Positions 1,323 to 63,771 of a stretch of DNA of 64,000 nt are shown here, in pieces; within the stretch, counting starts at the first letter, position 1, and each line of letters opens with the position of its first letter. The position numbers and the translations under genes were made by a program. This DNA is from Arthrinium phaeospermum (lineage: Eukaryota; Ascomycota; Sordariomycetes; Amphisphaeriales; Apiosporaceae). The stretch covers positions 2,108,001 through 2,172,000 of the forward strand of contig QYRS01000002.1 in the NCBI GenBank assembly GCA_006503535.1, read 5' to 3'. The notes under the pieces are model-generated. The model saw only the letters and a program-made list of their open reading frames with translations. It was not told where the DNA came from and did not search any database.

Positions 1323-1869
1323 GACAACCAGCCCAGCAACAATCTCGAGTTTGGCCCGAATAGATAGTTAACGAAATGGAAGAAGTAGTTCAACTATTGG
1401 CCCCAAAAGTGCTTGGGAATCAGTTCAAGACACCCGCTTACTAAGCCACCGGTCAATCAGAAACATCACCATCGCCATTTCCTGGCGATCGGTCGACATG
1501 GAACAGATGCACCAAGACGAGGACCCAGTAGGTCAAAATGTAAGCCAAATAGTGACTGAGCGCATTTGATATCTTTGAAAACTCCAACTAAACACTGGAA
1601 TTGGGTATGTGAAAACTGCCACGCTTTGCCTGTCCTAACCTGAACGCCGTTGCGAATGCATATACCCTTTGCTGTATACCGAACAAAACCAGGGAAAAGC
1701 AAAATATACGTATACGCTAATAAAGTGATAACCGCCTGGGGTTTGGGTCCCTTGGGATCTCGCTCGACACGAATTGCCTCCTGCCCTTACAGTGACCGGA
1801 TCCTAGGCTGTCAAAATCGCCTGGTCTCAACCAAGCCTATGGGTACATGACAGGATCGAAAACCAGATC
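1323..1869. other. Intergenic, 547 bp
   Basis: Lies between the 5' end of the acyltransferase and the 3' end of the U-box gene, so it should hold the acyltransferase promoter. No convincing coding exon or RNA gene seen. Confidence 0.6.
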
Positions 1870-22847: not shown

Positions 22848-23780
22848 GATTTCGAAATCAGTTGATTAGCAGCAAACAGCAGCGTGAGTTGGATGGGAGA
22901 TTTGACCTCGGGTGGGATATGCGACAATATTTATATACCACAACATCGGACCGACACCGACGGGACTCCATTACCAACACGCAAGATCGCGGGCGATTGC
23001 CGACGCTTCCCAGGCCGATGATGGCTCTGCATAGCGACGGTGATGGGGTTGGATGGGGCCGCAGGACGTACGCCAAGGGGCTTGCATCCGGACGCTAATC
23101 CGTGCTGACTCGAGATCGTTACGTTGAGAATATAGACTGTGGTTTGTGGCACTCATTCGCGGTCCACGATACATAAATTGGTTGAATCTGACTATTATAT
23201 ACGTGTTGGAACAGCCCAGATCGGGAACACATAAGGTTAAGAAGAGTGACAGTTGGCCGTTGTGCGCAGCATGTCAGGCACAAGACAGACATTACTCAAA
23301 TCCGTCTACTGTAGCATGGCAGGCGTCGGGGGATCCACAGTGCCAAGATGCAATACTCTAATTAAAGGCTTGGTATGGCCGGCTTGGTATCTCCCACCTA
23401 GGAAAGGGTTGCGCCAATCAGGAGACAGTTGTAATCCGGGGTTGAAGTAACGGTGTAGCGTCAGGGGCCCTTTCATGATGGACAGCACAAGCTGACAATG
23501 TTCGCATCCTGCCCGCTGTTTTGCACCAGTCGAAAGCTAGTGTGCGTATGTGCCTGCGCCCAACAGTGGAGGATTAGCTCACCGTAGGTGGCGTAGCTGC
23601 TGCGCCCCACTGTACCCGACTTCACCACTTCACATGTTCAGCTGCTCTTCCAGGCTGCCACCTCTGTAAACCGCAAACTCAGGACAAACAACTTGCTTTC
23701 GGCTGCCTCAATTGATTTCTACCTCTTAGCGGATTGAACCGTTTTCTAGGCGCCTATTACCATCTTTCTGACCCGACATC
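22848..23780. other. Intergenic, 0.93 kb, divergent promoters
   Basis: Lies between the lactonase-like and CVNH start codons. No coding exon or RNA gene recognised. Confidence 0.6.
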
Positions 23781-38490: not shown

Positions 38491-41400
38491 ATGACGGAGC
38501 TGACATTGTGGTATCCAGAGATACACCCCGTGTTCCAGCGCGAGAATGCCTCTTGCTTTCGTCTGGCGCATACGAGACCCGATGAGCTGGCAGAAGTCAT
38601 CCCGGAATACGTCCTCTTCTCGTATTACCGGACATCGAACCCGCGAGATGAGTTGGTTGACATATCGGCGCGCGGTTTCGCCAATTCGATCAACAGGGCC
38701 GGCTGGTACCTCTTCGAAACGCTGGGGGAGCCGGAGAACTTCGAGTCGGTGGGCTACTACGGCCCAAGTAAGGGCGACGCGGCCACGGATATGCTGAAAG
38801 CACCACAGCTGACGGTTTTCAGATGATTTGCGATATCTAATATTGATGTTGGCGGCGATCAAGGTCGGATACAAAGTATGCATCGCCATCTTCTCTCTTT
38901 CTCTCTCTCTTCCTCAGTCTCTCGCGCAGGAGGTTGAAACGTCCCCTTGTTTAATATCTAGCGATAGATGGTATACACGTCACCTCGGAACAATCTGGAA
39001 GGGCACTTGAACGTGCTGGAAAAGAGCGAATGCGGCGTCTTCCTGGTCGCTAGCGCCGTGTCGGCCCAGGCGCAGCCCATTCTGGCCAAACGGCCGATGC
39101 GAACGCTCACCGCCCCGGAGCTTGAATGGTTCCTGGCGGAGTCATTCGTCGAGCCGTACCCGTACACGAAGACCTTCGAGGAGGCGCGACATGACCCGTG
39201 CGTCGTTCTACACACGACGGGTTCGACGGGTCTCCCCAAGCCCGTGGTCTGGAAGAACGCCATGCTGAGCACCTATGAAGCCTGGCGCACCATCCCGGCC
39301 GTCGACGGGTTTGTGCCCCCGCCCGAAATCTACCAGACGGCGCGGCGCGTCTACACATCGCTGCCCATGTTCCACACCAGCGGGCTCAACGCCGCCCTGA
39401 TCTGGACCCTCTCCTTGGGGGTCACCCTGGTTTTCGGCGCGGCCCATGTGATCCCCAACGCGGACTATGTGGACGAAATCCACCGATATGCCGACGTAGA
39501 AGGGTCGATGAGCGCGCCGTCAGTGTACGAAGATCTATGCGCCCAGCCAAAGATGCTGGTCCATATGAGGCATCTCCATTATGTCGTGTCGAGCGGGGCT
39601 CCTCTATCGCGAGCTGCCGGGAATCAGATTTCCAAGTACTCTCGTGTCATCAGTAACATCGGCGCCACGGAGACGGCCTGCTTGCCCCGTCTCTGCCCCT
39701 CGATGGCGGATTGGCAGTACTTTTACTGGCACCCCACCCATTCCGGCATCCAGATGCGCGAGCACGTCGAAGGCTTGCACGAGCTCATCATCGTGCGGGA
39801 CCGCAACCTTGAGCCGTTTCAGGGGGTGTTCTACGCATACCCGGAGCTGGAAGAGTGGCCGATGAACGATTTATACGACCGCCATCCGACCAAGCCATTC
39901 CTATGGCGGTACCGGGGTCGGAAAGACCACGTCATCGTGTTCAGCAATGGCGAGAAGGTGGTGCCCGTGCTCATGGAAGCCGCGCTGACGAGCAGCCCAA
40001 TGGTGAAAGCGGCCATGGTCGTGGGCCATAGACGATTTCAGCCGCTGGCTCTGCTGGAGCTGTCCGACAGTCAAGGCCCGCCGGAAGACGAGACGGAGCG
40101 GCACACCCTGATCCAAGAACTTGGTCACTTCATTGACGAGGCCAATGCGTACGCGCCGGCACATGCCCAGCTCGACCACCACCACATCCTCTTCGCAGAC
40201 CCTGCCCGGCCGATCCACTCTCTTGGCCAAGGGAAGATTCAACGACAACTAACCTACAATCTTTACAAAGATGACATTATTGCCGCCTACACTGCGATTG
40301 AGCAAAGAGCTGTCTCCAACCATCACATTTTCACCTCTGTTGGTGAATCTATTGATTGGCTCCGGAGACAGCTGATTGAGGTTGCAGGAAAGGAGGTAGA
40401 GGCAGACGACGACCTTTTCAAGGCTGGGGTCGACTCTCTGCATGTAATGAAGTTGGCGCGCGAGATAGGGGGCATATCGCCCTCCGCCATCTACCGACAT
40501 CCTACTCTCCGCCTTCTTGCATCTTTCTTGGTCGGCAACGAGTCAGACGAAGGCGCTCGCCCCGACTCCACAGACACGCTAGATAAAATGGCGTCCCTGT
40601 TACGGTTATACACGGCTGCCCTGCCTCGACAAGTGCGGAAAGAGACCAGGATGACTGGTGATGGCACCAAGCCTGCTCGAGAGGTGAACATGCGCATCGT
40701 GCTGACGGGTAGCACTGGCTCGCTGGGCTCGTACCTTCTCGACGCCCTATACCACAGTCCCCAGGTGGCGGGCATCGTGTGCCTGAATCGCGGAGCCGAC
40801 AGCGCCGACCGCCAACGCAGCGCTTCAGCAGGTCGAGGTCTGACGTCCGACTGGGACGAGAGCCGTGTCATGTTCCTGGAAGCCGACCTGTCCGCGCCTC
40901 TGCTGGGGCTCTACCCGGCCGTGTACCAGCGGCTGCAGACCGAGACGACACACGTGATCCATAACCAGTGGCCCGTTAACTTTCACTGGCCCGTTGCGTG
41001 CTTTGAGCCGCACATCCGCGGCGTACGCAACCTGGCGGACCTGTGCCTCGTTACGAGACATGACGCCCTCCTATTCTTCGTTTCCAGCGTCTCGGCGGTC
41101 GCGGCGTGGTCGGAGCCAGACCCGGTACCGGAGGCCCCTGTCCGGAACATGGCCGCGGCCACTATGGGGTACGGTCAGGCCAAGTTGGTATCGGAACAGA
41201 TCCTCGAGCGGGCGGTCGCATATTCCGGTCTCCGGGCGGCAACCTGTCGTATTGGGGCGGTGGCCGGGCCGGTAGAGAGGCCCGAAGGCCTCTGGAATCG
41301 ACACGAGTACATACCAGCGGTACGTACATGTCCTCATTTCTTCCAATGCTGCTGGAATAAAGAAGCAAGCTGACAATACAATAATTAGCTGATCAACTCA

Positions 41401-42147: not shown

Positions 42148-43499
42148 CTAGACGGAAAGGAAGACACCATCCCCGATATATCCAGGGTCCCCATGCCTAG
42201 TAGTCAGCGCGGGCGGGCAATTCAACGATGGCACACCGTCGCACATCCACGAGCGCTGCCTCTTGCTAAAAGTCACCTCCGGGTTGTACCGCGGGCAGTG
42301 CAGGCTCCACACGAGGTGGCCCGAGATGCTGTGCTTGATGGCCACGAGGTACCTCCGAAGATCCGCGGACAGGGACGGGTCCGCCTCGTGGGCGCCGACC
42401 GTGTCCAGGTACCTGGCCACGTGGCTCTGGATGAGCCGGCGGCAGATCCGCTTCGCCTCGCCGAGGCGGATGCGGTGCTCCTGCATCAGCACCCAGATGG
42501 AGTTGACGACGTGGTCCCGGCCCTGCGCCTCGGCGGCCGCGACCTCCTTCGGCCACGACCACAGGTCGTTCTGCAGGCCGACGGCGGTCCAGGCCGGCGC
42601 GACCAGGGACTGGCAGCGCCCGAGCTCGTGGGCGGGGATGCGGAGGGCCATGCCGAAGGTTACTACGCCGTACCAGTACCTATGTAAGGTAGACTCGGGT
42701 CAGTCAGGGGTCGGTCATGTCCATGTCCATGCCAACAATCTGGTTCAGGGGGCTGGGCTGTGTGGAAGGGACTTTCTCACATCTCGCCGACGTCCTTGAT
42801 GCGGTAGGGGATGTACTCGGCCATGCTCGTGAACCGCACCCCGTGCTCCCGCGCCGAGCCGACCTCGAGGAAGCGCGCCCAGGCCTTCATGGTCGTCTTG
42901 GCGCAGTCCGGGTCGATGGACAGCATCTCGCTGAAGATGAGGGACTGGATGCGCTTCTTCCCGGCGGCCTTCTCGTGGGCCGGCTGGGGGGTGGCGGATC
43001 CGGGCCGTTGTTGCGCGGCCTCTAGGAATCCGTTCATGATCTCGTTGTTCTCGGCTTGCCCCTAGAATAAGTTGGCATCAGCTATTTTCGAACCCCCTGG
43101 GAACTGATGGAAAAGGGGTAAAATGCATGCACTTACCACGTCACATCCCATGCACTCGACCATGTCTGAATTCCATCAATAAGCAATCCCTTAGAAGACA
43201 TGGTGGCATAGTGTGAACATACCGTCATACATGAAGGCAAACTCGTTGGCATAGGCCACGACTTCCATCCGCTCGGGCATGCACTCGGGCATCACGACAG
43301 AGACGAAGCTGTAGTCGGGCCCCAGGCTGCCGCGATACCCCTTGCAGGGCCCGACGAGCCGGGCCCAGTCCTGATGGGCCCGGATGGCCCCGCGATCTTC
43401 GAGCTCCGTAAACCGACTCCGGCGCACGTCGATGCCGCCACTCAGGCCCTCCGTGTCGTAGGTAGAAGGGTCCACGACTTCAGAATATCGGCATTCCAT
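42148..43499 (-). CDS. Stand-alone class I terpene cyclase, related to the cyclase half of fungal bifunctional (PT-TC) synthases
   Basis: Exons 43223-43499, 43137-43165, 42781-43061 and 42148-42679 give 372 aa. The start [19 protein letters not shown] and [18 protein letters not shown] match the N-terminal cyclase domain of fusicoccadiene/ophiobolin-type chimeric synthases. Splicing a 29 nt microexon creates the Asp-rich motif FMYDDMVE (D92, D93, E96). The NSE motif is NDLWSWPKE (N233, S237, E241). Both bind the Mg2+ cluster that ionises the prenyl diphosphate. The protein ends 130 residues after the NSE motif, and no isoprenyl diphosphate synthase domain follows in any frame. It therefore depends on GPP, FPP, GGPP or GFPP made elsewhere. 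Chain-length preference cannot be read from the sequence. Transcribed convergently with the NRPS-like gene, 264 bp apart. Confidence 0.88.
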
Positions 43500-44920
43500 A
43501 TTTCATCGAGGTATCGTCGGCAATAAGGGTCAGTATCCGGGAATACTGTTAGAAATTATAGAAACCCCTTAGAGTCTTAGACTCTTGGCTGGCTCAACGG
43601 CTATTTGGGTCCAGTAAGACGGGGGGTCATTGATACCTAGTTGTAGCCGTGGCATCCATCAATTGGCTCTGAGGCCATCCGCTGCGCGCCATGTTCCGTC
43701 TCGCTCGCACGGCAGCGGCACACGCGGAATGGATGTTGCGACTTTGTATTACGTATTGATGGCATCTGCCGCCGTAGAAACGCCCATGACTAGGATGTCG
43801 GTGCCATCGATCTCCTCGCCTCGGGCCAAAGAAGCCGATAATACCGGGCTTGTACCGGGCGTCCGTATGATATTTCCAAGATTCGTGATAAAGCTTGTCT
43901 TCAGAAGATCTGATGAACTGGCCCAGAAAAGCGTGGATGGGAAGGTACGTCGTTGGTTTGCATCTTTGGGGCTGCAATGAGGCGACAGGAACTTTCCGGG
44001 GCCGTTTGCGTGTGTCAGCCTAGCTGGACCAGAACCATGTGCGTGGGTCTGAGGGTAACTCTGGCTCCCCGAATGTTCGAGACCCCCGGATCGACGACAA
44101 TGACCAGGTCGGCAGTCTGTCGCGGATAATGTCGACTCCCCCGCGGCCCCGCCCCTCTTGAACGTCGCCAGTTCTGCAGGCTGCGGCAGTCCGATCTCCA
44201 GGGTAGCATGTCACCGTGACCCTTGAACTAGTGGTCAAACGAAACAGATCGCCCCAGAAGCGCTCAACCTCGAAGTCTCGTTTACGAATACAATCCCCAG
44301 ACGCGCGAGAAGCGGTACCTGCTGCTGCCTTAATCGGCCGTCCGCCTGGACTTTGACTCGCTCACGGCTCACCGCCCGCTGGAAAGTTCAGATGGCGCAT
44401 GAAAGAAACAGAGACGAGTCAGGGGGGTGAAAAGGCTTGACTTTGGTCAAGCTTTCCTGGGGTATTGACAACGGCCGCACTAGAGCGCCCGAGCTTGCAG
44501 GCTAAGCATGTTCGAATGAACGGTCCCGCAGATGGGCTGCCTGGGCAGTCAATTCAGCTTAACTGGAACAAGGCAGTAAACGGGCCCCGCCTGGCAGAAA
44601 GAAACCTTGGCAGATGGTGATTAGAGTCACTCCGCCGTGGATCGGGACGAAATCAGGCATGTTCGCAATCGGGAGTTGGCAGATGTTTACGAGCACTTCA
44701 AGCTGAGCCAAATGTTTTGAATGAGAAGCGAAACGTGAAAGTTTATTTCACATACCATACGTTGGTGATGATTTGGGCACATGACTACCCCTGAATCTGA
44801 CAGCCTCCCCCTTATTGGAAGCTGAACTGCGATACTGTATTATTCTCATATAGGAGGACCGTAGAAGCTATATATCAAACAAAGTCATAAAACATTCATA
44901 GACCAATAATTGTTTCCATT
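43500..44920. other. Intergenic, 1.4 kb, containing a monooxygenase relic
   Basis: Lies between the terpene cyclase promoter and the 3' end of the multicopper oxidase. Apart from the flavin monooxygenase remnant near 43.8 kb, nothing is recognised. Confidence 0.55.
43750..43960 (-). pseudogene. Frameshifted fragment resembling a flavin-containing monooxygenase
   Basis: One minus-strand frame reads KLYHESWKYHTDARYK, like the HSWxY segment before the NADP-binding loop of FMO-type enzymes. A neighbouring frame shifted by one base continues EEIDGTDILVMGVSTAADAI, like the second Rossmann motif (VLVVGxSxSAADI). A stop follows soon after, and no FAD-binding N-terminus is visible upstream. The two motifs in family order but different frames suggest decay of a former cluster oxygenase. 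The match is short and made by eye. Confidence 0.35.
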
Positions 44921-47155
44921 CTAGTCCAGCGGTCCGTAGCGCGCCGGCATGTCAAACTCCACATGAGGCATGTCCTTGAGCTCCTGCGGGACCGGCGGCA
45001 TGACCTCCATGCCTTCCAGTAGAATGACTTGTTGTCCGCTCTGTGGGTTGCATGATATCGTTAGGAGATCACGTCATATGCCTTTAGTGAAACAAGATGG
45101 TGCTGCCGACTTACCGCGAAATGATGAATCATGTGACAGTGCAGCATACTGACGGCCGGGAACGTGATGCAATAGCGAATGACGACAAACCTGCCCTCGC
45201 CCGCGTAGAGCGTGAACCCATCGCGGTACGGCGGGTTCTCCAAGTTAAAGTACCCAGCCACTCCCTCGCCCCCCTTCTCGAGCGCCTCGTCGACGCTCTT
45301 CCAGGGGAACCCCCCTCGCCCCTGGCCGATGACCCAGACCTTGTGGTTATGCTTGTGAAACGGGTGGTTGGAGTCGACCTCGGCGCCGTTCTCGACGACG
45401 AGGTCGACGACGGACCCGTTGCGGAGGAAGCCGCGCGCGTCGCCCCACGACGTCTCGCCGCGCGACGCCTCGTTCCACAGGATGGGCGGCACGTTTTGGC
45501 GGAAGAACTCGTGCGGGGCCGCGTTCAGGACCCAGGTCGAGGGGCCCGTCTTGTTGACGAGGAACTTGAGGGTGAAGTCGGCCCTTGGGGGCGGCGGGCG
45601 GAGAGGAAAAGGGGCGAGCTTGGATTCGTCCATGACTTTGCTGGACGGGTCGATGACGCTGCCGTTGAGGTGTAGCCATGGTTTGGTGCTGGGGACGGTT
45701 CTGTTCGGTGTCGTTGATAGATACTGTTGCAACCTTGTCAGTCTAGAAGGCATCTTGTCACCTGTCGGTGGTTTCGCACCTTGGTAGTCGGGTACCGGAG
45801 AATGCCCGCTCCTTGGATCACCTGCTCGACGCGTAGCGAATGTAGTCGGATAGCATAATCGCCAGCCGGCTTGTCGAGGTGGACCAGAACACTTTCCCAC
45901 TATCAGCAAATAGCTCCGCCACCAAGTTCGCAGCCCTGTAATAGGGGAGAGTACCTCGTCCGTTCGCCCAGGTTGATATGTGTCCGAACCACCTTCTGCG
46001 GAAGGACAAACTCGCCATCAGAACCCACGACCCAGAACTCGTGCTCGTCGATGCTGATGGCCAGGGCGTGGTGGGCCCCCGAGTTGATGAAGTTGATGTA
46101 CAGCCACCCCTCGCCCGGCGCGGCTTGCACCACCTCGAGCTCCGGGTGGGTCTCGGTGCAGTACTCGGGGTTGGCGTACTGATGGCCGGGAATCCGATAC
46201 TCGCAGCCGCGCTCGTTCCGGCCCGGCCCACCGGCCTCCTCGATGTCCTGGGCCGACTCGCATCGGGTCCCGCCCCTCCCGTTGAGGGTGAGACTGTTGG
46301 CGCAGACGGGGATGTAGCCGGTGTCGCGGAAGCGGATCAGATACATGTCCATCGGCTGGTCGTTCCAGTCCGCAATGATGATGTGGCGCGGGTTCTTCTC
46401 CGCCGCGCGCATGGCTTGTAGATCTGGCTCGTGATTGGAAATGAGTTCGTAGGGTCTGGGACGCCAGTCTGCGGGTATGATCCATAAGGGGCCGCGTTGT
46501 CCCTACTCTGAATGTCAGCCTTGCTTGATTCAACCGTAGTTTCTTCTACGAGGTCTGCCGGAGCCAAGAGAGGAACACCAACGTCTGAGAACGCGGGCCC
46601 GAAATGCCCGTGGTAGAAGTAGCTCCCATATTGGCCCGTAGGCGTCATCCGATAGGTGTATGTGCCCCTCGGCGCGGTTGTCCACTGCCAGTGGTCAGTT
46701 GGATATATTATGAAGAGTATGGTACACGGCTTGGGAATCAAACCTGAGTGACCCCGGGTACGCCGTCGTTCCAAGGCTCGTCAATCTGATATATGCCGTG
46801 CCTGCACTTTCACTTAGAGCCTGGGTGGGTTGGCGATGCGCGCAAGGGAGGTGAGGGTTCTAAATACCAGTGGATTGTCGTCTCGATGGCCATGTGGTTC
46901 TCGACAACAACCTCCAGAGTTTCATCCTCGTTGACCGTGAGAAGAGGCCCTGGCGTGTCGTTGTTGATCAAGAACGTTGGACGACCGTGACCATCTGTCT
47001 GGAAGGTTAGTAGAATGAGAGACGATTGTGGGGGATTGGGTAGGCCTACCCTGCTTGTCCCATTCGTACGTCAGGTTGAGGTGATATCGCCGGACCCCTT
47101 GGCCCAGCACCAACCACGCAAAAGGTGACGCCAGATGTAGCCTTTCGAACCTCAT
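44921..47155 (-). CDS. Multicopper oxidase (laccase family) with all four copper motifs
   Basis: Eight exons (47050-47155, 46868-46994, 46744-46801, 46583-46684, 45955-46502, 45780-45891, 45115-45723, 44921-45040) give 593 aa. The copper motifs are intact: TIHWHG (H77, H79), YHGHF (H122, H124), HPFHKHNH (from H471) and LHCHMIHHFA (H546, C547, H548, H552). The residue ten after the T1 cysteine is Gln, not the usual Leu, Met or Phe. Such enzymes oxidise phenols by one electron and reduce O2 to water. In fungal clusters they often couple aromatic polyketides. Intron 4 has a weak donor (GTTGGT), supported by restoring FSD-GQRGPLWIIPADW. The N-terminus MRFERLHLASPFAWLVLG is only a weak signal peptide, and an upstream exon is possible. 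Confidence 0.87.
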
Positions 47156-47833
47156 CGTGCCGATTAACAAGTGCTATCACAAGTTCCAGGCGGATGGACG
47201 TTGACTTTGGAGGCCTTCAAGTTGTTTCTAGCATATCCATTGATAGCAGCTGTACCAGACATACAAAACCCAGATGTGCCACTTCATCCACCTTGCAAAA
47301 CTCACGTGATGCGACTGAGTAGGGGGTGCCATGGTCCGTAGGTATCATGGAGTATTCTAGATCCCGACGGAGCCAGCAATAGTGGGAAAGATGCCACTCT
47401 CCCCTGTCCAAGGGGCCGGATCGCACCAAGTCGCAATGACGAAGGATGTAAAGCTAGAGGGAAGGTTACGTGCGTGTAGTCTGTCCGGAACAGGTGATGC
47501 TAATGCAGTTGATCCGAGAACGCGCGTAGATCGTAGCAGGTTAGTGGTGAGAGGGGGTGACAATGGGGGATTGCGCCTGAATCGCCCCCCTTCCCCGGAC
47601 CTCGTAGGTTCAGACGACCGAACCATCTCCGGCGGGGGAACGGGACCTGGACCCGTCGTCCCAGCTCCTGATATCTCCTTTGCAGATTGAGACCATCTGG
47701 GCTCGGGAGACCATTCTGTTTTCGGACGTATCACGGTGGCGAGTCATCACACCAATGAATAATGAGCGAGAGTATGTAGGCTCCTAATTGAACCTCTCGC
47801 TACTGTCACGTCTTTCTGCGTCCTTGGCTGCTC
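47156..47833. promoter_or_regulatory. Shared divergent promoter of the two multicopper oxidase-like genes
   Basis: 678 bp between the opposed start codons of the intact oxidase and the copper-less homologue. It must carry both promoters, so co-regulation is likely. No specific operator was identified by eye. An unplaced N-terminal exon of the minus-strand gene could lie here. Confidence 0.5.
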
Positions 47834-50171
47834 ATGAAGAATAATTTCACTATGTCGTTGCCTATCAAATACGAGAGCAGCGTGGAGCGATTGCTAAGTC
47901 CCACCTACCCGCGATCGTCTCTTGTAGTTTCCAACAGTCGCCGGCCTCGTTGGCTGATTCCTGCGCTCATCAGCAGCCTCTGGATCTTGACTATATGCGT
48001 TACTAACCACTGGCGGATCGGATCTGGGGTGAGGTTCAACTTGCGACACAGTGCTACCAACGGACCGAAGGCCGACCAGGTGGTTCGGCGGTACAACGTG
48101 ACGGTGGGGGCCCGCTGGATGAATCTAGGTCAGTCTTTTTCAAGCAATACTAGGATGAAGGTGCACATGGACGATGCTAACCAATTGGGAGTAGATGGAG
48201 GGTTTTGGCGAGGGATACTTGTTTGCAATGGGGAGACGCCATGTCCGACACTGTATGCTGAGGAAGGAGATGTGGTGGAGTTGAACGTCCACAACGATCT
48301 GTTCTCCCAGGTCTCGATTCACTGGTCAGGCATGGACCACCGAAGGTAAGATGCGGGCGGCATTTCGACTGTAATACTTGGGCTGAAGTTTTTGAATCAT
48401 TCGGTAGATTTGGATTCTGGAATGACGGCACGGGCGGCTTGAACCAGGTTCGGGATCGATACCCCTTGGAATTGACCTTGCATTCTAACAGTATGACAGT
48501 ACGGACTATTTCAGCGCGGGAACTTCACGTCTCGGTACGACACCACCGGCCGCTGGGGCCTGAACTGGTATGCAGACCACACGGGCGTCGGAATCATCGA
48601 CGGCGCCCATGGGGTGGCCTACATTGCCCCGTCCCCCTCTCGCCCGAGGCCGTACCACCGCATCACCTCTTCCCCCACGGAGCTGGCATTGATCCACGAG
48701 GCGGAGCGCAACATCCAACACATGCTGGTCTGGAACTACTATCGGCGCGATGTCGGTTGGCGGATCCTCGAGCTCAAGGGCGAGGGCACCAACCTCAACT
48801 GCTACGACGCCATCCTCGTCAACTCCAAAGGGCGCCGTCACTGCCGGCACCCCGACTATCCCACGCTGAACGGCCTCAAACTCGATGAGTCCGGGTGCGC
48901 CATCGAAGCTGGGAATGATGGCGTTCCATGCAGCCCGACAGATGCCGACTACGAGGTGCATATTTCATAATCGGTGGCTTTCCTTCCAGTTGGAAACTTT
49001 AAGCTGACCCTTGCGTAGGTCATTGAAACTCACGGCCGACCGTGGATTATGCTGAACGTCTTGAACATTGGCTTCGAGCACGCCGTCAGATTTAGCATCG
49101 ACAATCACAAGATGTGGATTATCGCCAACGACGGCGGGTTCGTTGAGCCCCAGCTCGTCGACGTTCTTTACATCAGCAACGGAGTCCGCTACACCATTCT
49201 AGTGCAGCTGGATCAAGAGGGCGCTGATTACGCCATGCGCTTGGTGTCCACCAGCACGAAGCAGAACCTCCAGGGATTTTCTATCTTGAGATACCCAGTC
49301 CGTCCCGCTCCGTGTCTCTTACCCTCTAAACCATGGGTATGTGTAAGCGTGCTGACAAGACCCAGGCCTTGCGCTACCCCCTCCATGGGGCTCCCATGAC
49401 CATCCCCCCAACTCGGGGCGGACTGGCACCCTGCGTGTACCCCGACGGCTCCATACATGCTTCCTGCAATACCACCTCAGTAGGTTCGCTCAGCCCATAC
49501 CCCCCATCAGCCCCTCCGCCATCCAACAAGACGCTGCACTTCGAGATCGGGTCGGTGCCGTCCAAGTACGAAAAGCACATCACGGAGTGGTACCTCAACA
49601 AGAAGCCGTACCAGCTGTACCGCGCCCAGATGGCGCCCCACCTCTTCCGCAAGAACGTGACGGACGTCGAGGACCCCGTCGTCGGCGACCTGCCCTGGGG
49701 CACCACCGTCGACGTCGTCGTGCAGAACACGGCCAACGACACGATGCCCCTCTACAAGCACGGCGACCCCATGTACCTGCTGGGCGCGCAGGCGAACGCC
49801 GCGTGGGAATGGGACACGGTCGAGGGCGCCCTCGCAGCCGGCGTCCGACTCAACGTGGAGACGCCGGCCCGGCAGCTGGTCCACGACGTGCCCCCGCTGG
49901 GCTGGGCGGTGCTACGCTGGCGGATCCGGGTGCGCGGGGCCACCATGATGCACTCGAACAAGTTCAAGTACTACGGGGTAAGTTCCTTCAATGCTGGCAC
50001 GCCCCCTTACCTACAGGAGTACCTAATCCTGACCACTTGATTATCTAGATGGGCATGGCTGCGCCTTTGCTCGAAGGCATGGACTCGAGCATGCGCGACG
50101 AGGTGCCCGATCACGCCAAGATGCTCCCCCACGTCGAGTTTACGCCGACGAATGACGGGGTGTTTGGATAA
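47834..50171 (+). CDS. Membrane-anchored multicopper oxidase homologue lacking copper ligands (pseudo-laccase)
   Basis: Seven exons (47834-48128, 48195-48345, 48408-48447, 48500-48955, 49019-49297, 49366-49977, 50049-50171) give 651 aa with no stop or frameshift. One transmembrane helix lies near the N-terminus (WLIPALISSLWILTICV, about 40-57). The cupredoxin folds are recognisable (VNIGF-type strands, LNWYADHTG, ILVQLDQEGADYAMRL, GMAAPLLEGMD). Every copper motif is altered: HWHG is HWSG (141-144), HSH is ADH (187-189), HPxHxH is MPLYKH (534-539), and HCH is HSN (603-605). Introns 1 and the last one, and the one after GGLNQ, sit at the same positions and phases as in the neighbouring oxidase. 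It is therefore a duplicated, probably non-catalytic partner. Intron 5 has a weak GTCCGT donor. Confidence 0.85.
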
Positions 50172-51476: not shown

Positions 51477-52537
51477 CTACAGCCGCGGCTCCGCGTAGTT
51501 GTCCGGGTCGCAGTCGAGGAACTCGTTGACCCGCGCCGCGCAGGACTCGGCATACTGCCAGACCGACGCGTGCCCGGCGCGCGGCCAGACGACGAGCTGG
51601 CAGTCGGGCAGCGCGTGCAGCAGCTCGTAGCTGCGGGGCGTGGGCACCACGTAGTCGTCGTCGCCCGTCATGACCAGCGCCGGCATGCCGAGCTCGTGCA
51701 GCCGGTAGAACGAGTGCAGGTGCTTGTCCTTGGGCGCGCACCAGTGCTTGATGGCGCGCAGCTGCACCATGAAGCCCTCGACGTCCTGGAAGGTCGGGAG
51801 GCGCCCCTCGGAGGCGTGCTCGTTGTACTCGCTCTCGCGCAGGCGCCGGAAGTAGGCGTCGGCGGCCGCGACGCCCTGCGCGTCGTTGCGGAAGAAGACG
51901 AGGGTGTAGGCGCGCTGCCAGTCTTCCTCGCTCGCGCTCTTCTGCAGCGTCAGGAACCGGTCCAGGTCTGGGTCGGTACGGGGCCAGAAGTGGTCCCCGG
52001 GGGTAGGGCCCGAGGGGTCGGCGCCGATGAGGACCAGACGCCTCACTCGCTCCGGCTTCGCGAGGGTCGCCATCTGGGATGCCATGCTCCCCATTGAGAA
52101 CCCCAGGAGATCTATGACGTCGAGGTTTAGGGCATCTAGGAACTCATTGAGGTCATCACCCATATCCTTTACTGTAGACAGTAATTAGTTTCGCACTGGT
52201 GTCCAGTATTTACCGGTAGGCTGAATCAACCTACTATCAGATGGAATGCGCTGTGTGGTGCCGCTGCTCTGCCCGACCGCAGGGGGGTCGAACATGATGA
52301 CGGGACGCTTCAGCGCCAGGGGGCGTACGAACACAGGGTCCCAATACCCCATAGAGGCCCGTACCTTCGCTCATTTCACTGGTCAGAATGATCAGTGTAG
52401 GATTCAACTTCTCAGCAGACACTCACATGCATGTGCATCACAAGCGGTATGCCTTCCGCGGGTCCAAGTCTTCTGTAGGCGTACGTTATGTCATTCTTAG
52501 CCTCGATCTTCTGAACCGGGATGTAAGTGGGAATCAT
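51477..52537 (-). CDS. Alpha/beta-hydrolase
   Basis: Exons 52427-52537, 52214-52364 and 51477-52171 give 318 aa. The fold is clear: N-terminal strands YAYRRLGPAEGIPLVMHMH, YWDPVFVRPLALKRPVIMFD, nucleophile elbow DLLGFSMGSMASQ (S113), acid MTGDDDYVVPTPRSY and histidine WPRAGHASVWQ. The catalytic triad is therefore complete. Related fungal proteins are annotated as hydrolases or non-haem peroxidase-like proteins. Specific reactions cannot be told from the sequence. It shares a 546 bp divergent promoter with the PKS, so it is probably co-expressed. It may act on a pathway intermediate or help unload the synthase, although the PKS has its own hydrolase domain. Confidence 0.85.
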
Positions 52538-53083: not shown

Positions 53084-56000
53084 ATGGCCAATTCGAACCC
53101 ATCGTTATTTGTCTTCGGGCCCCAGACCCGTCCTTCCCCAGATGATCTCGCTGAATTGCGCCAGGAACTATTACACAACCCCCTACTTGCGAAGGTGTGT
53201 CTGGGGGCTCTAAACTTACCCAAATTCTGGAAGAAATTGGTCCTCTTCGACTCTGAATTGAACCAAACGTTGGCAGGGTCGCATATCCACGAGTTTGTGG
53301 AATGGTTAACATCAAGTCGAGAGACCCCCTTCTCTGCTCCGCAATGTCCAATCACGCTCACTTTCTTGCTCAACTTCTTGATCCAAATCAATCAGTACCT
53401 GCGTTTCTTGCGCTCCATAGATAGTGATGGAGCGCCTGATACACAATCATTGATGCTCGGGAGACTGCAGCACGGTGGCGTTCATGGGTTCTGTGTTGGT
53501 TTTCTTTGCGCCGTCACGGTGGCCATGTCTAGATCAGAAGAGAAAATTGGAGAGAACGCTGCTCGTGCACTTTACTTGGCATTAGCTATCGGTGTTTACG
53601 TTGAAATGGACGCCGGTATTGAACCAACCACTTGCATCTCGGCTAGATGGAGACATAACCAAGCCAATGCGCTTGACAAAGCGTTGGCAATTCTCAAGGC
53701 TTATCCAGAGGTAAAACCCTCCTGTTCTAGTCGAGTTGATGCTTGGTATTGTACTAATCAAGCATGCAGGCCTATATCGCGGGCATTACGGATGAGACCT
53801 CCATGACCATCACCATTCCGGATGCATATCTCGCGGGCTTAGTCCCTGTGCTTGAGGGCCATGGGTTCTCCGTCCGAGAAATCCCAGTTGACGGTCGATT
53901 TCACAGCACTGTTTACACTTCCGTGACTGAGCGACTCGTCGGCTTCTTTGCAGAATCTACTAAACAACGGTTCCCAGGCCCCGAGCAATTGCAGGTCCCC
54001 GTACGCTCAGCCACGGATGGCAAAGTGATCTGTCGAGGCGACTTGGTCAGACACGCTTTGGAGAACACCTTGCTCAAGCAAGTGAATTGGTACCAGACCA
54101 TCACGCTGGCAATGGCAGATGTCCCGCAGACACAGAAATGCATCGCGCTTGCGGGCTTGTCCAACCACTTCCCACTCTCTTTGGTGAGGAACCCAGACAT
54201 ACAACTTCATTTCATACGGGATTTGGGGGAGACTAGCATGGAGATCAACGACAATCTCAGCAGCACTACCGGCCCCGAGCCCACGCCCGAAAGCACCAAC
54301 GGCGGCAACGGCACTGAGGGATCCTGGGTCATTGCTTCCGATGAAGAGGACTTGAGCGGGGACGAGTCCTCGAACGACGGTCTGCCGCCTGACTTTCCAC
54401 CTCATTCGGTCGCGGTCGTGGGCATGGCCGGGAGGTTCCCTGGTGCCAACTCCGTCGAAGAGCTCTGGACTCTTCTCTCGACCGGGATTTCATCCGTACA
54501 GAGGGCGCCCGATAGAATCGGATTGGACTACCTCTCCGGAGATTACGCCCAGAAGAAGTGGTGGGGCAACTTCATCGACGACCCCGACACCTTCGATCAT
54601 AAGCTCTTCAAGAAGTCGCCACGGGAGGCCCTGGCCTGCGATCCCCAGCAGAGAAAGCTGCTCGAGGTGGTGTATGAAGCGCTCGAATCATCCGGATACT
54701 TCGGTGCTCAGACGTGTCAAGCTTCCGAGTCGGCCGATTATGGCTGCTACATCGGGGCCACCCAGAACAACTACGTCAACAACGTCAGCACACAGCCCCC
54801 GTCGGCCTATGCTACCATCGGGACGGGCAGGTCCTTCATCTCGGGCGCCGTCAGCCACTATTTCGGCTTCACCGGTCCCGCTCTGACGGTCGACACGGCA
54901 TGCTCGTCTTCGCTCGTCGCCATCCATACCGCCTGCCAAGCCATCCTGGCCGGCGACTGCTCCGCCGCCGTTGCGGGAGGCACCAACATCATCACGAGCC
55001 CCCACGACTACCGCGACCTCCAGGCCGCCGGCTTCCTCAGCCCGACGGGCCAGTGCAAGCCCTTCGATACGGGCGCCGATGGCTACTGCCGCGGCGAGGC
55101 CGTGGCGGTCGTGGTGCTCAAGTCGCTGGCCGCGGCCATACAGGACGGCGACCACATCCTCGGCGTCGTCACCGGCTCGGCCGTCAACCAGAACGCCAAC
55201 GAGGCCCACATCACCGTGCCCCACTCCGGGTCGCAGACCAAGCTGTACCGCCACGTCATGAGCATGGCCCAGGTCGTGCCGGGGGACGTGACCTTCGTGG
55301 AGGCCCATGGGACGGGCACCACGGTGGGGGATCCCATCGAGGTCCGCAGCCTGCGCGATGCATTTGGTGGGGCTTCGCGGAGGGACTCGACGCTGTACTT
55401 CTCGTCTATCAAGGGCAACATGGGCCATGCCGAGTCGGCCGCGGGAGTCGCGGGGTTGATCAAGGTTCTGCTCATGTTGAAGCATGGGCAGATCCCCCCG
55501 CAGGCCAGCCACCAGTCTCTCAACCCGACCATTCCGGCGCTGGAGCCAGACCGTATGGGCATCCCGCGCCAATTGACCTCTTGGCAGTCACCACGGCTGG
55601 TGGCTTGCGTCAATAGCTATGGCGCCGCTGGTAGCAACTCGGCCGTAATGACCTGCGGACCACCGTCAAATCCCAGTCTCCGTCCCTCCATACAGGCTGT
55701 TGGCGCCGGACTGCCTTCCAAGCTGCCCTTGATCATATCTGCGGCCACCAAAAGCAGCCTTGCGCGGTATTGCCAGAAGTTACTCGATTGGCTGCAACAG
55801 GGGCAGGGGCAGTCGCCTGGGCTGCCCGACATCCAAATCGCCGACGTGCTGTTCCACTTGGCCAATAGAGCGAATCGGTCACTGGAGCACCGCCTCTTGG
55901 CATCCGTGTCCGACATCAGAGACCTGAAGACGAAGCTCGCAATTGCCACACGAGAGGACAGCCCTGCCTTCGCCTCCGCACCACCGCCCAAGCCCCTCGT

Positions 56001-59000
56001 GCTAGTCTTCGGCGGCCAAGAGAGCCAATTCGTCGGGCTGTCAAAGGCCGTACACGCCGGATCGGACATCCTCCGGCGCCATCTTGACGACTGCCAGAAG
56101 CTGCTTGTCCAACTTGGCTTCGAGGGCATATACCCCGCCATTTTCCAGCAGACCCCCATCGCCGACATCGTCACGTTGCACGCCGCCCTTTTCTCCATCC
56201 AATACGCCTCGGCCAAGGCGTGGATGGACTGCGGCCTGAGCGTGAGCGCCGTCGTCGGCCACAGCTTCGGCCAGCTGACTGCTCTCTGCATCTCGGGCGT
56301 GCTGTCGCTGTCGGACGCGATCCGGCTCGTGACTGGCAGGGCGGCGTTGATCAACACGCACTGGGGGGCTGAACCTGGATCCATGCTGTCCATCCAAGCG
56401 GAGCGCCACAAAGTCCAAGGGTTGCTGGAAATACTGAACCGGGGCCAAGACCGGACGGACCACGCAGAGGTTGCCTGTTTCAACGGCCCCAAAAGCCACG
56501 TCGTCGTCGGCTCATCCCAGTCGATTGACCGGTTGGAAGCACTCGTTGCCGAGGAGGGTCCACGCGATGGTGTGCGTGCGAAGCGGTTGGCCGTTACCCA
56601 CGGGTTTCATTCGCTCTTCACGGAAGCGCTACTGCCTCAACTGGAGGATCTTGCGAGCGAGCTGGAGTGGAAGAGCCCCACCATCCCCCTCGAGCTCTGC
56701 GAAGAAACCCCTAGCGACCACGAGCTTGACCATCATCATGTAGCAAGACACACGCGCGGTCCAGTCTGCTTCCAGTCAGCGATTGAGAGACTAGAGACCA
56801 GATACTCAGAGTGTGTTTGGCTCGAGGCAGGACGAGGCTCGTCAGTCATGCAGCTTGTAAGAGGGTGCCTGAAGTCACCGGAGCGCCACTCGTTGTTCTC
56901 TCCACAGCTAGCAACGGGCCCTGCCTTGGACTCACTGGTAGACATCACCGTGAAGTTGTGGAAAGAAGGACAGAGGGCCCAGTATTGGCAATTCCACCCA
57001 AACCAGCGCCTGCACTATCGTGATCTCAGTCTGCCCCCGTACCAATTCCAGAAGACGCGACACTGGTTACCATACGTGGTACCAAAGGTGCATGACGACA
57101 CGGCTGCAGTTGACCAGCCCGACCAGCCGACGTGCCACGAGCTGCTATCACTTGTCAAAGGTGACAAGCTCGGGGAGGCGGTCTTCCGGATCTCCCCCAA
57201 AAGCGAGCGTTTCAAGGTCCTGGTTGCCAGCCACGTCATGGCCGACCGCGCCGCTATGCCCGCCTCGCTGTACGTCGAAGTGGTTGCCCGGGCTGCACTG
57301 TTACTCCAAGAAGACCTACCAGCAACCACTTGGGTACCGACAGTTGAACAACTTGAAATGAAGTCTCCAATTGGGATCGACCCAGAGTCAGAAATCACCC
57401 TAACAATGCAACTTCTTGAGGGCCCATCCCCGCTGTGGATCTTCACGATCCTACTTGCCAGCCCCAGTTGTATCAAACCTCAAGAAACGACAATTGGCGT
57501 AGTACATCTGAGCAAGCGCGCAGATCGCCACACAGCCCAAGCCTTCAAGCGATTCGAGACGCTGATCGGCCCCACACGATGGGAGCGCATCCTGCAGCAT
57601 CCGGATGCTGAGAGGATGCAGGGAAAGCACATCTACCGCGCCTTCAGCCAGATTGTGCAGTACTCCGACCTCTTCAAGGGCATCAAGGCCATATCCTGCC
57701 TCGGCCGCGAAGCCGCCGGCGAAGTCCGCATCTTGCCCGACGCCGACACCGACGCCGCCGCACCGGACCAGCGTCTCGTCGACACGCCCATGGTCGACAG
57801 CTTCATGCAGTTCGCCGGGTTTCTGAGTAACTACTTTAACGACGCCTCATCCCCGGGGAACCTGTTCGTGTGCCATCACATTGAGCTCCTCGAGTTCGGG
57901 CCCGGCTTCTCCCCCGACGCCGGGCGGTGGTTTGTCTTTGCCAGCATGACCGACAGTTCCGAGGAGGGAACCTCAGTCGACGTGTATGTGTTTGAGGCTG
58001 AGAGTAAGAGACTCGTGCTCACGGCTCTTGGAATGGACTTTTCGAGGATCACATGCTCTACGCTCACCCGGATCCTCGACGGCGCTGGGGGTGTTGAAAG
58101 GTCCAAGACCAAGACAGGGCTTGAAGAGGCCAAAGCCACAGTCGAGGCAACAAGGGGAGAGCCTGTTTCAACTCCCAACGATATCTCGAGTTGTCACAAG
58201 CCAAAGGAGGCCACTAGCACCAAGCGCCCTGAGATCTTTCAGATCATCGCCAACATCGCTGATGTCGGCCTTGAGGAGATATCGGGAGACGGAACTCTCC
58301 CCGACATTGGTATCGACTCCTTGGGCGTTACGGAGATGATCAGCGACATCAGCTCCATCTTGCACGTGGATCTCGACCTATCCACAATGCTCGTCTTGTC
58401 TGACATAGACGCCCTGGTTGCTCATATAGACGAGCGATTGGGACTGCACGAACTGCCGAGCGCAGTTGACACTCCAGTTTGCAGAGATACCGCCGAGTCT
58501 CAAGGGAGTACCAGCGAAGCGTCCGTGGCGCCGCTGCGACCCGCTCATGAGAAGCCCAACGGGCGTCTGTCGCGTATTGACGAGGTCGGTACGGAGCCTA
58601 GCAGCTTGACGGGCCCAGCGATCCACTCGGCATATGACGCTTTCGACGCGGTGCGGCTGAGCTACGACGACCTTGGTACCGCTGCCTCGGCTCTGGACTA
58701 CTGGAGTGACATCTACCGAGACGACGTCCGTCTGATGCTGGCATACATCACCGAGGCATTTGCCAAGCTGGCCTGCGACTTGAGGACGTTGAAACCTGGC
58801 GCAGTCGTACCACCCCTGGAAAATGTCCTGCCGCGACACCAACAGCTCATACGCCAATTACACCTCTTTCTGGTAGACGAAGGGGTCATGGTTGCGTCTC
58901 CCGGGGCTGGGAGCGGGTTCAGGAGATCGGATGCCGTGATTGACGAGACGCCTGCCGAGCTTGTCTACCAGCAGATCATCCCCAAGCACCCCCAAAACGC

Positions 59001-61072
59001 CACCGTCCGCGACCTGATCCGCGCGGTGGGTTCGCAACTGGCCGAGTGTCTCGCCGGCCAGGCGGACGGCCTCCAGATCGTCTTCGGCAACAAGACCAAC
59101 AAGAAGACCCTGGAGGACCTGTACGAGAACTGGCCCATGCTGGTCGCCGCCACCAAGCTCCTGGGCAACTTCCTGAACGAGGCCTTCGCCGCGAAGGGGG
59201 ACGGGACGAAGCCCTTCCGCATCCTGGAGATCGGCGCCGGCACCGGCGGCACCACGCGCTACATCGTCGACTTCCTGCAGAAGCACGGCATCCCGTTCGA
59301 GTACCACTTCACCGACCTGTCGGGCTCGCTCGTGCAAAAGGCCAAGCGGGCCTTCAAGAGCCTCGTCCCCGACGGCGCCATGACCTTCGGCCTGCTCGAC
59401 ATCGAGCAGGCGCCGCCCGCCGAGTTCCTCGAGAGGTTCCCCGTCGTCGTCTCCACCAACTGCATTCACGCCACGCGGGACCTCGCCCGCAGCCTGGCCA
59501 ACGTGCGCAAGATGGTCCGCCCCGACGGCGCGGTGGCGCTCATCGAGATGACCCGGACCATGTACATCTTCGACATCATCGTCGGGCTCCTGGAGGGGTG
59601 GTGGCTGTTTGAGGATGGCCGGTCGCACGCCCTGGCGGACGAGGGGCGCTGGACCAGGGCTATGCATGAGGCGGGGTTCAAGGAGGTTCTCTTCTCCGAC
59701 GGAGACTCGGACGAGGCCAAGACGGTGCGCGTTATAGGGGGGTTTCCCCAGAGCGCACCGGCACCAGAAGCCGGGCCTGTGACAGCCAAGCGCGTTGCTA
59801 CCAAGACGCCCGGCTTCGCCGTGCAAGAGGTCATCTACAAGACGATCGGTGGCCAGTATATCTATGCCGATGTTTACTGCCCCGAAGACGCCGACCCGAA
59901 GAGGAAGATGCCGATTGGTGAGTCGACGGCGCCCAAGCCTTCCGGAAAGCCCGCCCACCGTATTACTTATTGACTTTTCCCACGGCCAGCCCTCATGATC
60001 CACGGCGGCAGCCACATCCTCTTCTCCCGCAAAGACATTCGGCCCCCGCAGACGCGCATCATGCTCGAGATGGGCCTCCTGCCCGTCAGTCTGGACCACC
60101 GGCTCTGCCCCGAGGTGGCCCTGGCCGACGGGCCCATGGTCGACGTCTGCGACGCCCTCGAGTGGGCTCGGACGGAGCTACCTAACCTCCCCTTGAAGAA
60201 TCCCCGCATCCGGCCCGACCCCGACCGGGTCGTGGTGGTCGGCTGGTCGTCGGGAGGGCAGCTGGCCTTGTCTACGGGCTGGACGGCACCCGAGAGGGGG
60301 ATCAAGCCGCCCGAAGCCATCTTGGCCTTCTACAGCCCGACGGACTATGAAGACGACTGTGAGTGGTTACTTGTGTATTACAAATGGTCGCCGGCGTCTT
60401 AAGCTAACAGCATAACTCATAGGGTGGCAGTCGCCGATCCAACCCATTGGAGCCAAGGACTGGGGACCGGAGTATGACGTGTTGGAAGCTGTTCAGGATG
60501 AACCGGTACGTTGTTATGTGTTTTATATTTAGGATCTCCTATTACATGTCGATATTTTCTAATCGTTTCTTCCCCAGATCACCAACTACAGCGTCGTCAG
60601 CGCCTGGGCCCCGCTCTCGGACCCACGGATCCGCACCGACCCCCGCTGCCGCATCGTCCTGCACATGAACTGGAAATCCCAGACCCTGCCCGTCATCCTG
60701 CGCGGCCTCCCCAGCCGCGCCCGGGCCAACAGAGGCGAGCGCGTCGCTGGTATCGAGGGCGAGGAAGAGGTGGACTGGAACGCGTTGCCGCAGCCGTCGG
60801 CCGAGGAGATCCGGCGCTGCAGCCCGCTGGCCCAGGTCCGGGCCGGGAAGTACGCGACGCCGACCTTTATGATCCACGGCACCGCGGACGACCTGATCCC
60901 CTACACGCAGTCGGTTCGCACCGTCGAGGCGATGCGGGGGCGCGGGGTCGAGGCGCGGCTGGTGGTGGTGCCGGGTGCGCCGCACGTTTGCGACATGAGC
61001 AACGACCCCGAGTCGGCGGGGTGGAGGGCGGTGTTGGAGGCCTATGAGTGGCTGGGGGCGTACGTCAGATAA
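53084..61072 (+). CDS. Methylating non-reducing polyketide synthase (SAT-KS-AT-PT-ACP-CMeT-hydrolase)
   Basis: Exons 53084-53710, 53770-59917, 59990-60358, 60423-60505 and 60578-61072 give 2573 aa. Domains in order are as follows. SAT has GFCVG (C137). KS starts [12 protein letters not shown] (421) with DTACSSS (C587). AT has GHSFG (S1041). The product template domain has VASHVMADR (H1364) and MVDSFMQF (D1552). There is one ACP with GIDSLG (S1726). The C-methyltransferase has [12 protein letters not shown] (2027-2038). The C-terminal alpha/beta hydrolase has IHGGS, GWSSG (S2345), GTADDLIP and APHVCD. No reductive domains exist. This layout matches fungal synthases of C-methylated orsellinic acids such as 5-methyl- or 3,5-dimethylorsellinic acid, released by the hydrolase domain. 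The exact product is inference. Nearby NRPS-like reductase and O-methyltransferase fit tailoring of such an acid. Confidence 0.95.
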
Positions 61073-62255: not shown

Positions 62256-63771
62256 ATGGAGACTGAGCTCGAAGCCATCCTCAGCACTGTAGTGCAGAAG
62301 ACTACAGCACTTACCGCTCGACTGAAGACCGAAGGCGTGGTCCAGCCCACATTCGACGCCGCCGGATCCGAAGCGTACAAGGGCGAGAGCACTTCGCTCC
62401 GTCAGACACGGTACGAGCTAGCCGGAGCCGCCAGGGACCTCCTGAGACTAGCCCAAGGCCCGGAAGACGAGATATTGCAGCTGGCCCTATGCGTACGTGT
62501 TCCCAAAGATGAACATCCGGTGTTCGTGGGCATGCTTTATGTAACTAATGCTAATGTCCTCCATAATGTAGTCAGCAGACACGGCAAACCTGGCCACGGT
62601 TTTGCGCTTCGAGGTGGCCACCAGCATTCCCCTTGAGGGCTCCATTGGGGCCGAGGCCCTGGCTGAGAAAGTCGGCCTACCTCTGGCCGTGCTTTTGCGC
62701 ATTCTCCGCTACGCCATCGGCAACGGCCTCTTCATCGAGCCCGCGCCGGGGGTCTTCGCCCACAGCGCCGCGTCGGCCTGTCTGGCCCAGAGTCAAGACC
62801 TGAGCGCATTGGGCCGTATGACCACCGGCTGGGGCGCCAAGAACATGCTAAGCATCCCCGAGTGGCTCAAGCAGCAGCAGCAGCGAGGTGATGCGGGTCC
62901 GCAGGCGCCTTTCAATGTGGCGTTCCCGGAGTACGAGAACGTTTTTGAGCAGATGGACAGGGATCCAGAGGTCGCCAAGGACTATCACGCTTACATGACG
63001 GGGCGGGCGGGTCTTTACCGATATTCCCACGCTAACCTGGCCGGGGCCTGGGACTGGTCAACAGTGGGCGCCAAGACGGTTGTTGATGTAAGTGCTTAAG
63101 GCCCAAGATGTCAGACCTCAATTTATCCGAGTGTCTTTCGTGTCACTAATCCGGGGTATTCAAACACAACCAGGTCGGTGGCTCGGCCGGACACTCTTGT
63201 CTAGCTCTAGCAGATGCCTGTCCGGAAGCCAAGTTCATCGTCCAAGACGTGAACACCGTCGCGCTGGAGCAGGGGCGACAAGCGATGCAGTCACTACCGC
63301 CTGCGATTACCGAAAGAGTGACGTTCGAGCAGTACGACTTCTTCACGCCCCAGAAGACCGTCGGCGACATCTACATCTTCCGTCACATCCTCCACGACTG
63401 GAACGACGAGAACTCGGTCCAGATCGTCAAGAGTCTGGTGCCCGCTCTCAGAAGCGGAGACACCGTGCTTGTCTGCGAGGGGATCATGCCCGAGCCCCCG
63501 GCCAAGAAGGCTAACACGTGGGACCAGAAGCAGTTCTTGTGAGTAGTTCCTTCTGCTTTTTCTAATTCATGAATTTAACTTAGATCTGACACGAAACGTG
63601 TTCAGGTTTGAAGATATGGCCATGATGTGTTCTCACAATGCACGCGAGCGGACGGTCGGGCATTTTGTTGGGCTGTTCAAGGAGGCCGACAGTAGATTCG
63701 AGTACATGCGCACGACGGGAGGCCAGAATGGGACCTTTCTTTCGGTTGTTGAGTTTAGGTTCAAAGATTGA
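62256..63771 (+). CDS. SAM-dependent O-methyltransferase (plant/fungal small-molecule type)
   Basis: Exons 62256-62492, 62572-63087, 63174-63538 and 63606-63771 give 427 aa. An N-terminal helical, winged-helix dimerisation region (GAEALAEKVGLPLAVLLRI, LRYAIGNGLFIEPAPGVF) precedes the Rossmann methyltransferase of family PF00891. The SAM loop VVDVGGSAGHS is restored at the second junction (251-259). The catalytic segment is FRHILHDWNDE, with H325 as the likely general base. The end is QNGTFLSVVEFRFKD. These enzymes methylate phenolic hydroxyls. Its place just after the PKS suggests it acts on the aromatic product, in line with the cluster model. Similarity to sterigmatocystin-type and other fungal O-methyltransferases does not fix the position methylated. 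Confidence 0.92.

Follow-up and report, generated by a model that had tools for sequence, protein, structure and literature searches.

A conserved, probably membrane-anchored pseudo-oxidase encoded beside its intact multicopper oxidase paralogue in Arthrinium phaeospermum

We analysed a window of 64,000 nucleotides from the fungus Arthrinium phaeospermum (contig QYRS01000002.1, positions 2,108,001 to 2,172,000; all coordinates below are those of the window), the assembly of which comprises 48.4 Mb in 19 contigs. Two divergently oriented multicopper oxidase genes lie within it. The minus-strand gene (44921..47155), a laccase-type oxidase that we call the active gene, has a spliced model of eight exons (47155-47050, 46994-46868, 46801-46744, 46684-46583, 46502-45955, 45891-45780, 45723-45115, and 45040-44921) and encodes 593 amino acids (aa). 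The plus-strand gene (47834..50171), a pseudo-oxidase that we call the disabled gene, has seven exons (47834-48128, 48195-48345, 48408-48447, 48500-48955, 49019-49297, 49366-49977, and 50049-50171) and encodes 651 aa. The two start codons are separated by an intergenic region of 678 bp (47156..47833) that is common to both genes. In protein searches, the closest relatives of both products were those of Apiospora.

An earlier reading of the same DNA (the original prediction) had proposed an open frame of 651 codons over seven exons for the plus-strand gene, and this structure held up. Both spliced models stop at the coordinates proposed there. The nearest orthologue of the disabled protein (P0001) matches it at 13 of 13 residues around all six exon junctions, and the nearest orthologue of the active protein (P0067) matches at 11 to 13 of 13 residues around all seven, in both cases without a gap. 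Among the eight orthologues tried, gaps at junctions were seen in P0002 (one junction) and P0069 (two junctions). As the database model of P0001 begins at Met7 of the window protein, translation of the disabled protein probably starts at 47852 and yields 645 aa.

The two proteins are 33% identical over 562 aligned residues. The disabled protein shares with the active one the three Cu-oxidase Pfam domains (PF07732, PF00394, and PF07731), each of which was also matched in all 30 disabled homologues scanned (chosen from 70). The prediction that at least three introns share position and phase was borne out: exactly three of the six introns of the disabled gene and the seven of the active gene coincide both in phase and in their column of the alignment (phase 1 at aa 99; phase 0 at aa 163 and at aa 612), an overlap reached in 1 of 200,000 random placements. 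No close second disabled copy was found in the genome, where matches outside the pair were 27 to 34% identical (their motifs were not checked).

As had been proposed, the active protein is complete in its copper ligands: the motifs HWHG, YHGH, HPFHKH, and HCHMIHH supply the full set of 11 (10 His, 1 Cys). The HWHG motif becomes visible only once an intron that splits the Trp codon is removed. In the same columns the disabled protein reads HWSG, YADH, MPLYKH, and HSNKFKY, so that 7 of the 11 ligand positions are now Ser, Ala, Met, Tyr, Ser, Asn, and Tyr. An independent profile-profile alignment pairs the motif columns of both proteins identically. Residues are replaced in all four motifs. None of the corrected gene models restores a copper motif. 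We considered a splice variant of the plus-strand gene that might do so and rejected it; by eye, HW|SG contains a single GT, and splicing from it to the acceptor that follows brings in a stop codon.

We assembled 70 distinct relatives of the disabled protein (P0001-P0064 and P0186-P0191), each representing a 90% cluster and some of them fragments, from a protein search (66 matches) and a profile search (59 matches). Three further matches to the disabled query (P0065, P0066, and P0123) carry active-type ligands and were left out. Ligand counts below cover 71 disabled rows including the window protein, with gaps set aside. A search with the active protein gave 639 matches, ordinary laccase-like oxidases included, and figures for the active family rest on the best 120 of these.

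The losses are shared throughout the disabled family. In laccases, the type-1 copper is bound by His, Cys, and His, the type-2 copper by two His, and each type-3 copper by three His, as assigned for Trametes laccase and for Fet3p (the latter as given in the consulted portion of PMC4203857). All three type-1 ligands are replaced in the window protein. Across the family, the type-1 Cys is present in 0 of 70 rows, the first type-1 His in 0 of 71, and the second in 2 of 70. The three ligands of the type-3 beta copper are His in no row with a letter. Orthologues with intact ligands had been named as a possible counterexample, and none emerged; neither the type-1 Cys nor either of the two His changed in HWHG and YHGH was regained in any of the 70 homologues.

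The retained positions are equally consistent. Four of the 11 ligands, one per motif, are kept and nearly invariant: His141 of HWSG, a type-2 ligand position (48320..48322; 54 of 55 rows), and the type-3 alpha positions His189 (48578..48580; 63 of 63), His539 (70 of 71), and His603 (49951..49953; 69 of 70), the last of which is next to Ser604 in place of the type-1 Cys. His539 ends the nearly invariant stretch Tyr537-Lys538-His539 (49753..49761), in which Tyr537 occupies the position of the lost type-2 His (Tyr and Lys each in 71 of 71 rows). His189, His539, and His603 together form the full ligand triad of one type-3 copper, called Cu2 in Trametes laccase and T3-alpha in Fet3p numbering. The trinuclear site of the family is therefore incomplete, with type-3 beta lost, one type-2 His changed to Tyr, and type-3 alpha kept. 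An acidic residue (Asp or Glu) directly precedes His189 in 63 of 63 rows, and the family is further marked by Lys606 (67 of 70) and a new His580 (69 of 69). Exceptions to the kept ligands are confined to P0013 (a partial model), P0057 (Fusarium), and P0189 (Cercospora), in which Thr replaces His603. The original description of the protein as copper-less, with total loss of the metal site, is accordingly too strong.

When 597 columns are ranked by variability, starting from the least variable, the kept ligand columns fall within the first 9 to 14%, and the six lost ligand positions besides Tyr537 at 24 to 75%. If 4 of the 11 ligands were retained at random, some full one-copper triad would remain in 24 of 330 cases and this particular triad in 8 of 330. 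Because of that chance the triad pattern alone is modest evidence; triad retention is suggestive, and its near-invariance over a long time suggests more. In the active family (72 rows), all 11 ligands are present in 50 rows, gaps occur in 18, and letter differences occur in 4 (P0074, P0076, P0101, and P0126). Gln occupies the axial position of the type-1 copper in the active protein of the window. Gaps aside, the active family has Gln there in 63 of 64 rows, versus Met in 9 of 9 rows of the outgroup. An axial Gln, as known from stellacyanin, suggests a low redox potential.

With 12 of its 18 genera looked up, the named members of the disabled family cover at least nine orders in two classes, Sordariomycetes and Dothideomycetes, namely, Amphisphaeriales, Glomerellales, Diaporthales, Magnaporthales, Hypocreales, Xylariales, Mycosphaerellales, Myriangiales, and Botryosphaeriales. 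One member, P0187, is labelled Neofusicoccum parvum by its source; its locus name contains BOTSDO, which suggests Botryosphaeria dothidea. In a 68-row tree, the disabled proteins (28 rows; support 100/100) and the active proteins (29 rows; 99/98) each form a single clade, and each clade divides into three matching subclades. Rooted on rows resembling the pigment oxidases TilA and Abr2, the two clades are sisters, and an earlier quick tree gave a support of 96 for their grouping. Both trees carry a warning that long branches may meet, which makes the unity of each of the three groups surer than the order in which they branch. Together with the coinciding introns, these sister clades support the proposal that one duplication, an old one, lies behind both genes. 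Ramularia, a dothideomycete, groups with the Apiospora/Colletotrichum subclade in the disabled and active halves alike, and Zymoseptoria (P0018) falls in the same subclade of the disabled half; both genes therefore seem to have a common odd history.

Conservation within the disabled family is deep and reaches 95% or more in 137 of 571 columns. The change between Apiospora hydei and the window amounts to 0.13 in the disabled copy, versus 0.21 in the active copy. Distances among disabled proteins and among active proteins correlate at 0.96 over 12 pairs (the window pair and 11 of 14 contig-matched pairs). Judged from these protein comparisons, the disabled gene is an old, conserved non-laccase and not a decaying gene. 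The original prediction of selection on a noncatalytic role is upheld in the sense of a role other than four-copper oxidation. Ordinary laccase turnover is very unlikely, because the type-1 site and half of the trinuclear site are lost and the loss is conserved.

The two families also differ at their N termini. At a hydropathy cut-off of 1.4, 41 of the 44 full-length rows of the disabled family have a hydrophobic segment of 19 residues near the N terminus, and in 40 of these it begins no earlier than residue 12. Among 46 active rows, 21 have such a segment, and in 1 it begins that far in. In the window, the predicted anchor of the disabled protein spans aa 40 to 58 (47951..48007, plus strand). 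By hydropathy alone, the membrane anchoring proposed earlier for the plus-strand protein is likely. The window active protein scores 0.74; like the other Apiospora active rows it stays below the cut-off, and judged by hydropathy the Apiospora active protein has a weak signal peptide. Overall, the disabled proteins probably have an N-terminal membrane anchor and the active ones a signal peptide.

Co-occurrence of the two genes in other genomes, which had been suggested as a check, was found in many genera. Outside the window, synteny was judged from locus tags, contigs, and fused gene models. For 14 of the 70 disabled clusters, the longest contig is also that of one of 70 active-family clusters. 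Locus tags are consecutive in Neoarthrinium (JN550_004657/004658) and Fusarium nematophilum (ACJZ2D_011542/011543), and in Coniella both genes lie on one contig of 55.8 kb. Going by the names that the sources give, the active matches listed include 17 of the 18 genera with a disabled protein; the exception is Neopestalotiopsis, though Pestalotiopsis is an active match. The Neopestalotiopsis disabled protein, P0039, is a 969-aa model in which the oxidase runs into sequence that by eye resembles a zinc-cluster transcription factor and might be a cluster regulator from the adjacent gene.

We lean, with modest confidence, toward the disabled protein being a conserved membrane-anchored pseudo-oxidase that serves as a partner, noncatalytic as a laccase, of the divergently encoded soluble multicopper oxidase. 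The rates of change, about 1.5-fold higher at depth and no higher against A. hydei, combine with the anchor and the pairing to suggest such a tethered partner. The N-terminal anchor, as predicted from hydropathy, would tether the three-cupredoxin domain to a membrane, on its luminal or outer side. There the disabled protein may dock the active enzyme, with its signal-peptide-like start, and/or hold a phenolic substrate or its radical, so that oxidation would be confined to one place and one outcome. In A. phaeospermum, the pair might act on a polyketide-derived, probably aldehyde-bearing phenol made by the surrounding gene cluster.

Several observations weigh against this interpretation. The 14 shared contigs are mostly large and so indicate a common chromosome, not adjacency, and the Diaporthe batatas pair, on one contig, is 370 locus numbers apart (KVR01_007721 and KVR01_008091). 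In the word-limited searches, at least eight genera (Xylaria, Trypethelium, Bathelium, Botryosphaeria, Lasiodiplodia, Teratosphaeria, Didymosphaeria, and Macrophomina) have an active-family match and no disabled one; the missing match is weak evidence, as the search finds only relatives with exact words in common. Plain species history would also be expected to yield mirrored trees, and over deep divergences it is the disabled copy that changes faster (the 1.5-fold figure is a median). Finally, the near-invariance of the four former ligands exceeds what a pure scaffold would need.

This last point leads to the possible, though less probable, alternative that the disabled protein is a neofunctionalized metalloprotein. 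His189, His539, and His603, with His141 and Tyr537, would form a mononuclear site for copper or another metal, serving catalysis of its own or metal sensing or delivery to its twin. The triad being the ligand set of one copper, the near-complete retention of all five residues, the low variability of the kept columns relative to the lost ones, the acid beside His189, and the new His580 all fit such a site. The chance of a triad surviving at random, the Thr at His603 in the Cercospora protein, and the behaviour of two known relatives speak against it: as described in the part of PMC4203857 available to us, the insect pseudo-oxidase MCORP with two His bound little copper, and in the corresponding part of PMC2661564, E. 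coli SufI with two ligands bound no metal. A more elaborate version, which we regard as doubtful, would have the duplicated oxidase split into a soluble four-copper enzyme and a membrane-bound sister rebuilt on one type-3 site, a mononuclear metalloprotein that receives and steers or converts the radical of its twin. If true, this would be a two-protein phenol-coupling machine whose guide is a remodelled laccase.

It is unlikely that the disabled protein instead serves the secretory pathway as a general scaffold at a membrane or the cell wall, in the way proposed for SufI, with its linkage to the active oxidase a mere relic of tandem duplication without shared function. Known pseudo-oxidases of this fold do have roles that need no oxidase activity, and the insect protein is described as membrane-bound, in keeping with its signal anchor. 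Such a role would leave unexplained why two classes have preserved the pair, with subclades that mirror each other, why the window pair lies inside a secondary-metabolite cluster, and why a fused gene model in Colletotrichum salicis sets the active gene beside a close relative of the window hydrolase. A decaying pseudogene that happens to stay open is extremely improbable, and we rejected it on conservation: loss of catalytic residues is how decay starts, but the same losses and retentions recur in 71 rows over the orders listed above and nearly a quarter of the columns are almost fixed.

Pseudo-oxidases of this fold are known from other kingdoms, and the fungal family resembles each in part. 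MCORP, according to the accessible sections of PMC4203857, is likewise a conserved pseudo-oxidase without the type-1 Cys; it has an N-terminal signal anchor, is membrane-bound, and had no oxidase activity detected. It keeps both type-2 His and lacks all of His-Cys-His, whereas the fungal family keeps the first His of that motif in 69 of 70 rows. Unlike MCORP, the fungal family keeps the type-3 alpha triad and one type-2 His, with Tyr at the other. Neither a paired active paralogue nor a biosynthetic cluster is mentioned for MCORP in those sections. Plant SKU5, as summarized in the same source, is an ascorbate-oxidase-like protein without type-1 and type-3 ligands; it differs in keeping the type-2 pair and in acting in directional root growth, and gene pairing is not mentioned for it there. 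SufI/FtsP of E. coli (PMC2661564, in the sections consulted) has the multicopper oxidase fold with two ligands kept and is a proposed scaffold, but it is soluble and periplasmic, and its structure has no metal and blocked access to the site. By sequence, then, the fungal family is set apart from MCORP, SKU5, and SufI by the ligands it keeps and by travelling with an active paralogue.

The closest functional parallel may be viriditoxin biosynthesis, in which, according to the part of PMC6600887 consulted, the polyketide-cluster multicopper oxidase VdtB works with VdtD, a predicted inactive auxiliary protein that affects the outcome. VdtD has a hydrolase fold and is no paralogue of its oxidase, whereas the dead partner in the window is a cupredoxin-domain relative of its own. 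It is plausible as an analogy, and no more, that the disabled protein steers coupling stereochemistry, as is proposed for VdtD and VdtB. How fungal laccase reactions yield stereoselective biaryls was still not understood as of 2019, according to the same text. A conserved pair of live and disabled oxidases offers a two-gene test system in many species. It is also a natural experiment, in which a four-copper protein has been cut back in a defined, repeated pattern that could show what one type-3 site does alone.

Several active-family members are named by their sources as TilA/Abr2-type fungal pigment oxidases, and rows of this type form the tree outgroup; the window active protein is about 28 to 38% identical to the more distant rows among the matches listed (P0138-P0179). 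For the oligomeric laccases of Curvularia, the accessible text gives a single subunit mass, about 63 kDa, and does not mention a dead partner. A description of a fungal pseudo-laccase was not found among the open-access papers listed by the searches (subscription journals and preprints were outside their scope), nor was a paper on the Fusarium and Cercospora homologues when searched by their gene identifiers; PMC3200161, PMC11836134, and PMC9808054 likewise contributed nothing decisive.

The pair is enclosed by a secondary-metabolite cluster at about 38.9 to 63.6 kb of the window, as judged from Pfam matches on unspliced reading frames. To the left of the pair lie an NRPS-like carboxylate reductase with A-T-R architecture (main exon 38968..41370, plus strand; not the full gene ends) and a class I terpene synthase (42151..43502, minus strand). 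Only 42151-42699 of the latter is matched by Pfam; the upstream exons were read by eye and hold a DDxxE motif split by an intron, in addition to NDLWSWPKE. A terpene synthase inside a polyketide cluster makes a meroterpenoid pathway possible. To the right, an alpha/beta-hydrolase (matched region 51540..52537, minus strand; Pfam and tblastn) has an intact GFSMG motif and is 71 to 87% identical by tblastn to the hydrolase part of the C. salicis model, which continues into an active oxidase; because one gene model fuses them, the two genes seem to be neighbours in that species. Beyond it lie a non-reducing polyketide synthase of SAT-KS-AT-PT/DH-ACP-CMeT-thioesterase-like architecture (53084..61069, plus strand; Pfam, with unspliced ends approximated by eye) and an O-methyltransferase exon (63150..63539, plus strand; Pfam, not the full gene ends).

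The zinnimidine and cichorine clusters have the same core of non-reducing synthase, A-T-R protein, and O-methyltransferase, as far as the consulted accounts describe them, and no laccase or multicopper term occurs in the available portion of the text on zinnimidine biosynthesis. Our guess is that the substrate of the pair is a methylated phenolic aldehyde, which may be linked to a terpene.

Elsewhere in the window, an acyltransferase at the edge (3-1367, minus strand) has an N-terminal domain resembling trichothecene 3-O-acetyltransferase. A HET-domain protein is encoded at 11914-13587 (plus strand), and a long frame past the right edge of the window resembles another by eye. A cyanovirin-N domain protein is encoded at 23772-25097 (plus strand), in which a glycine-zipper model scores just below the cut-off.

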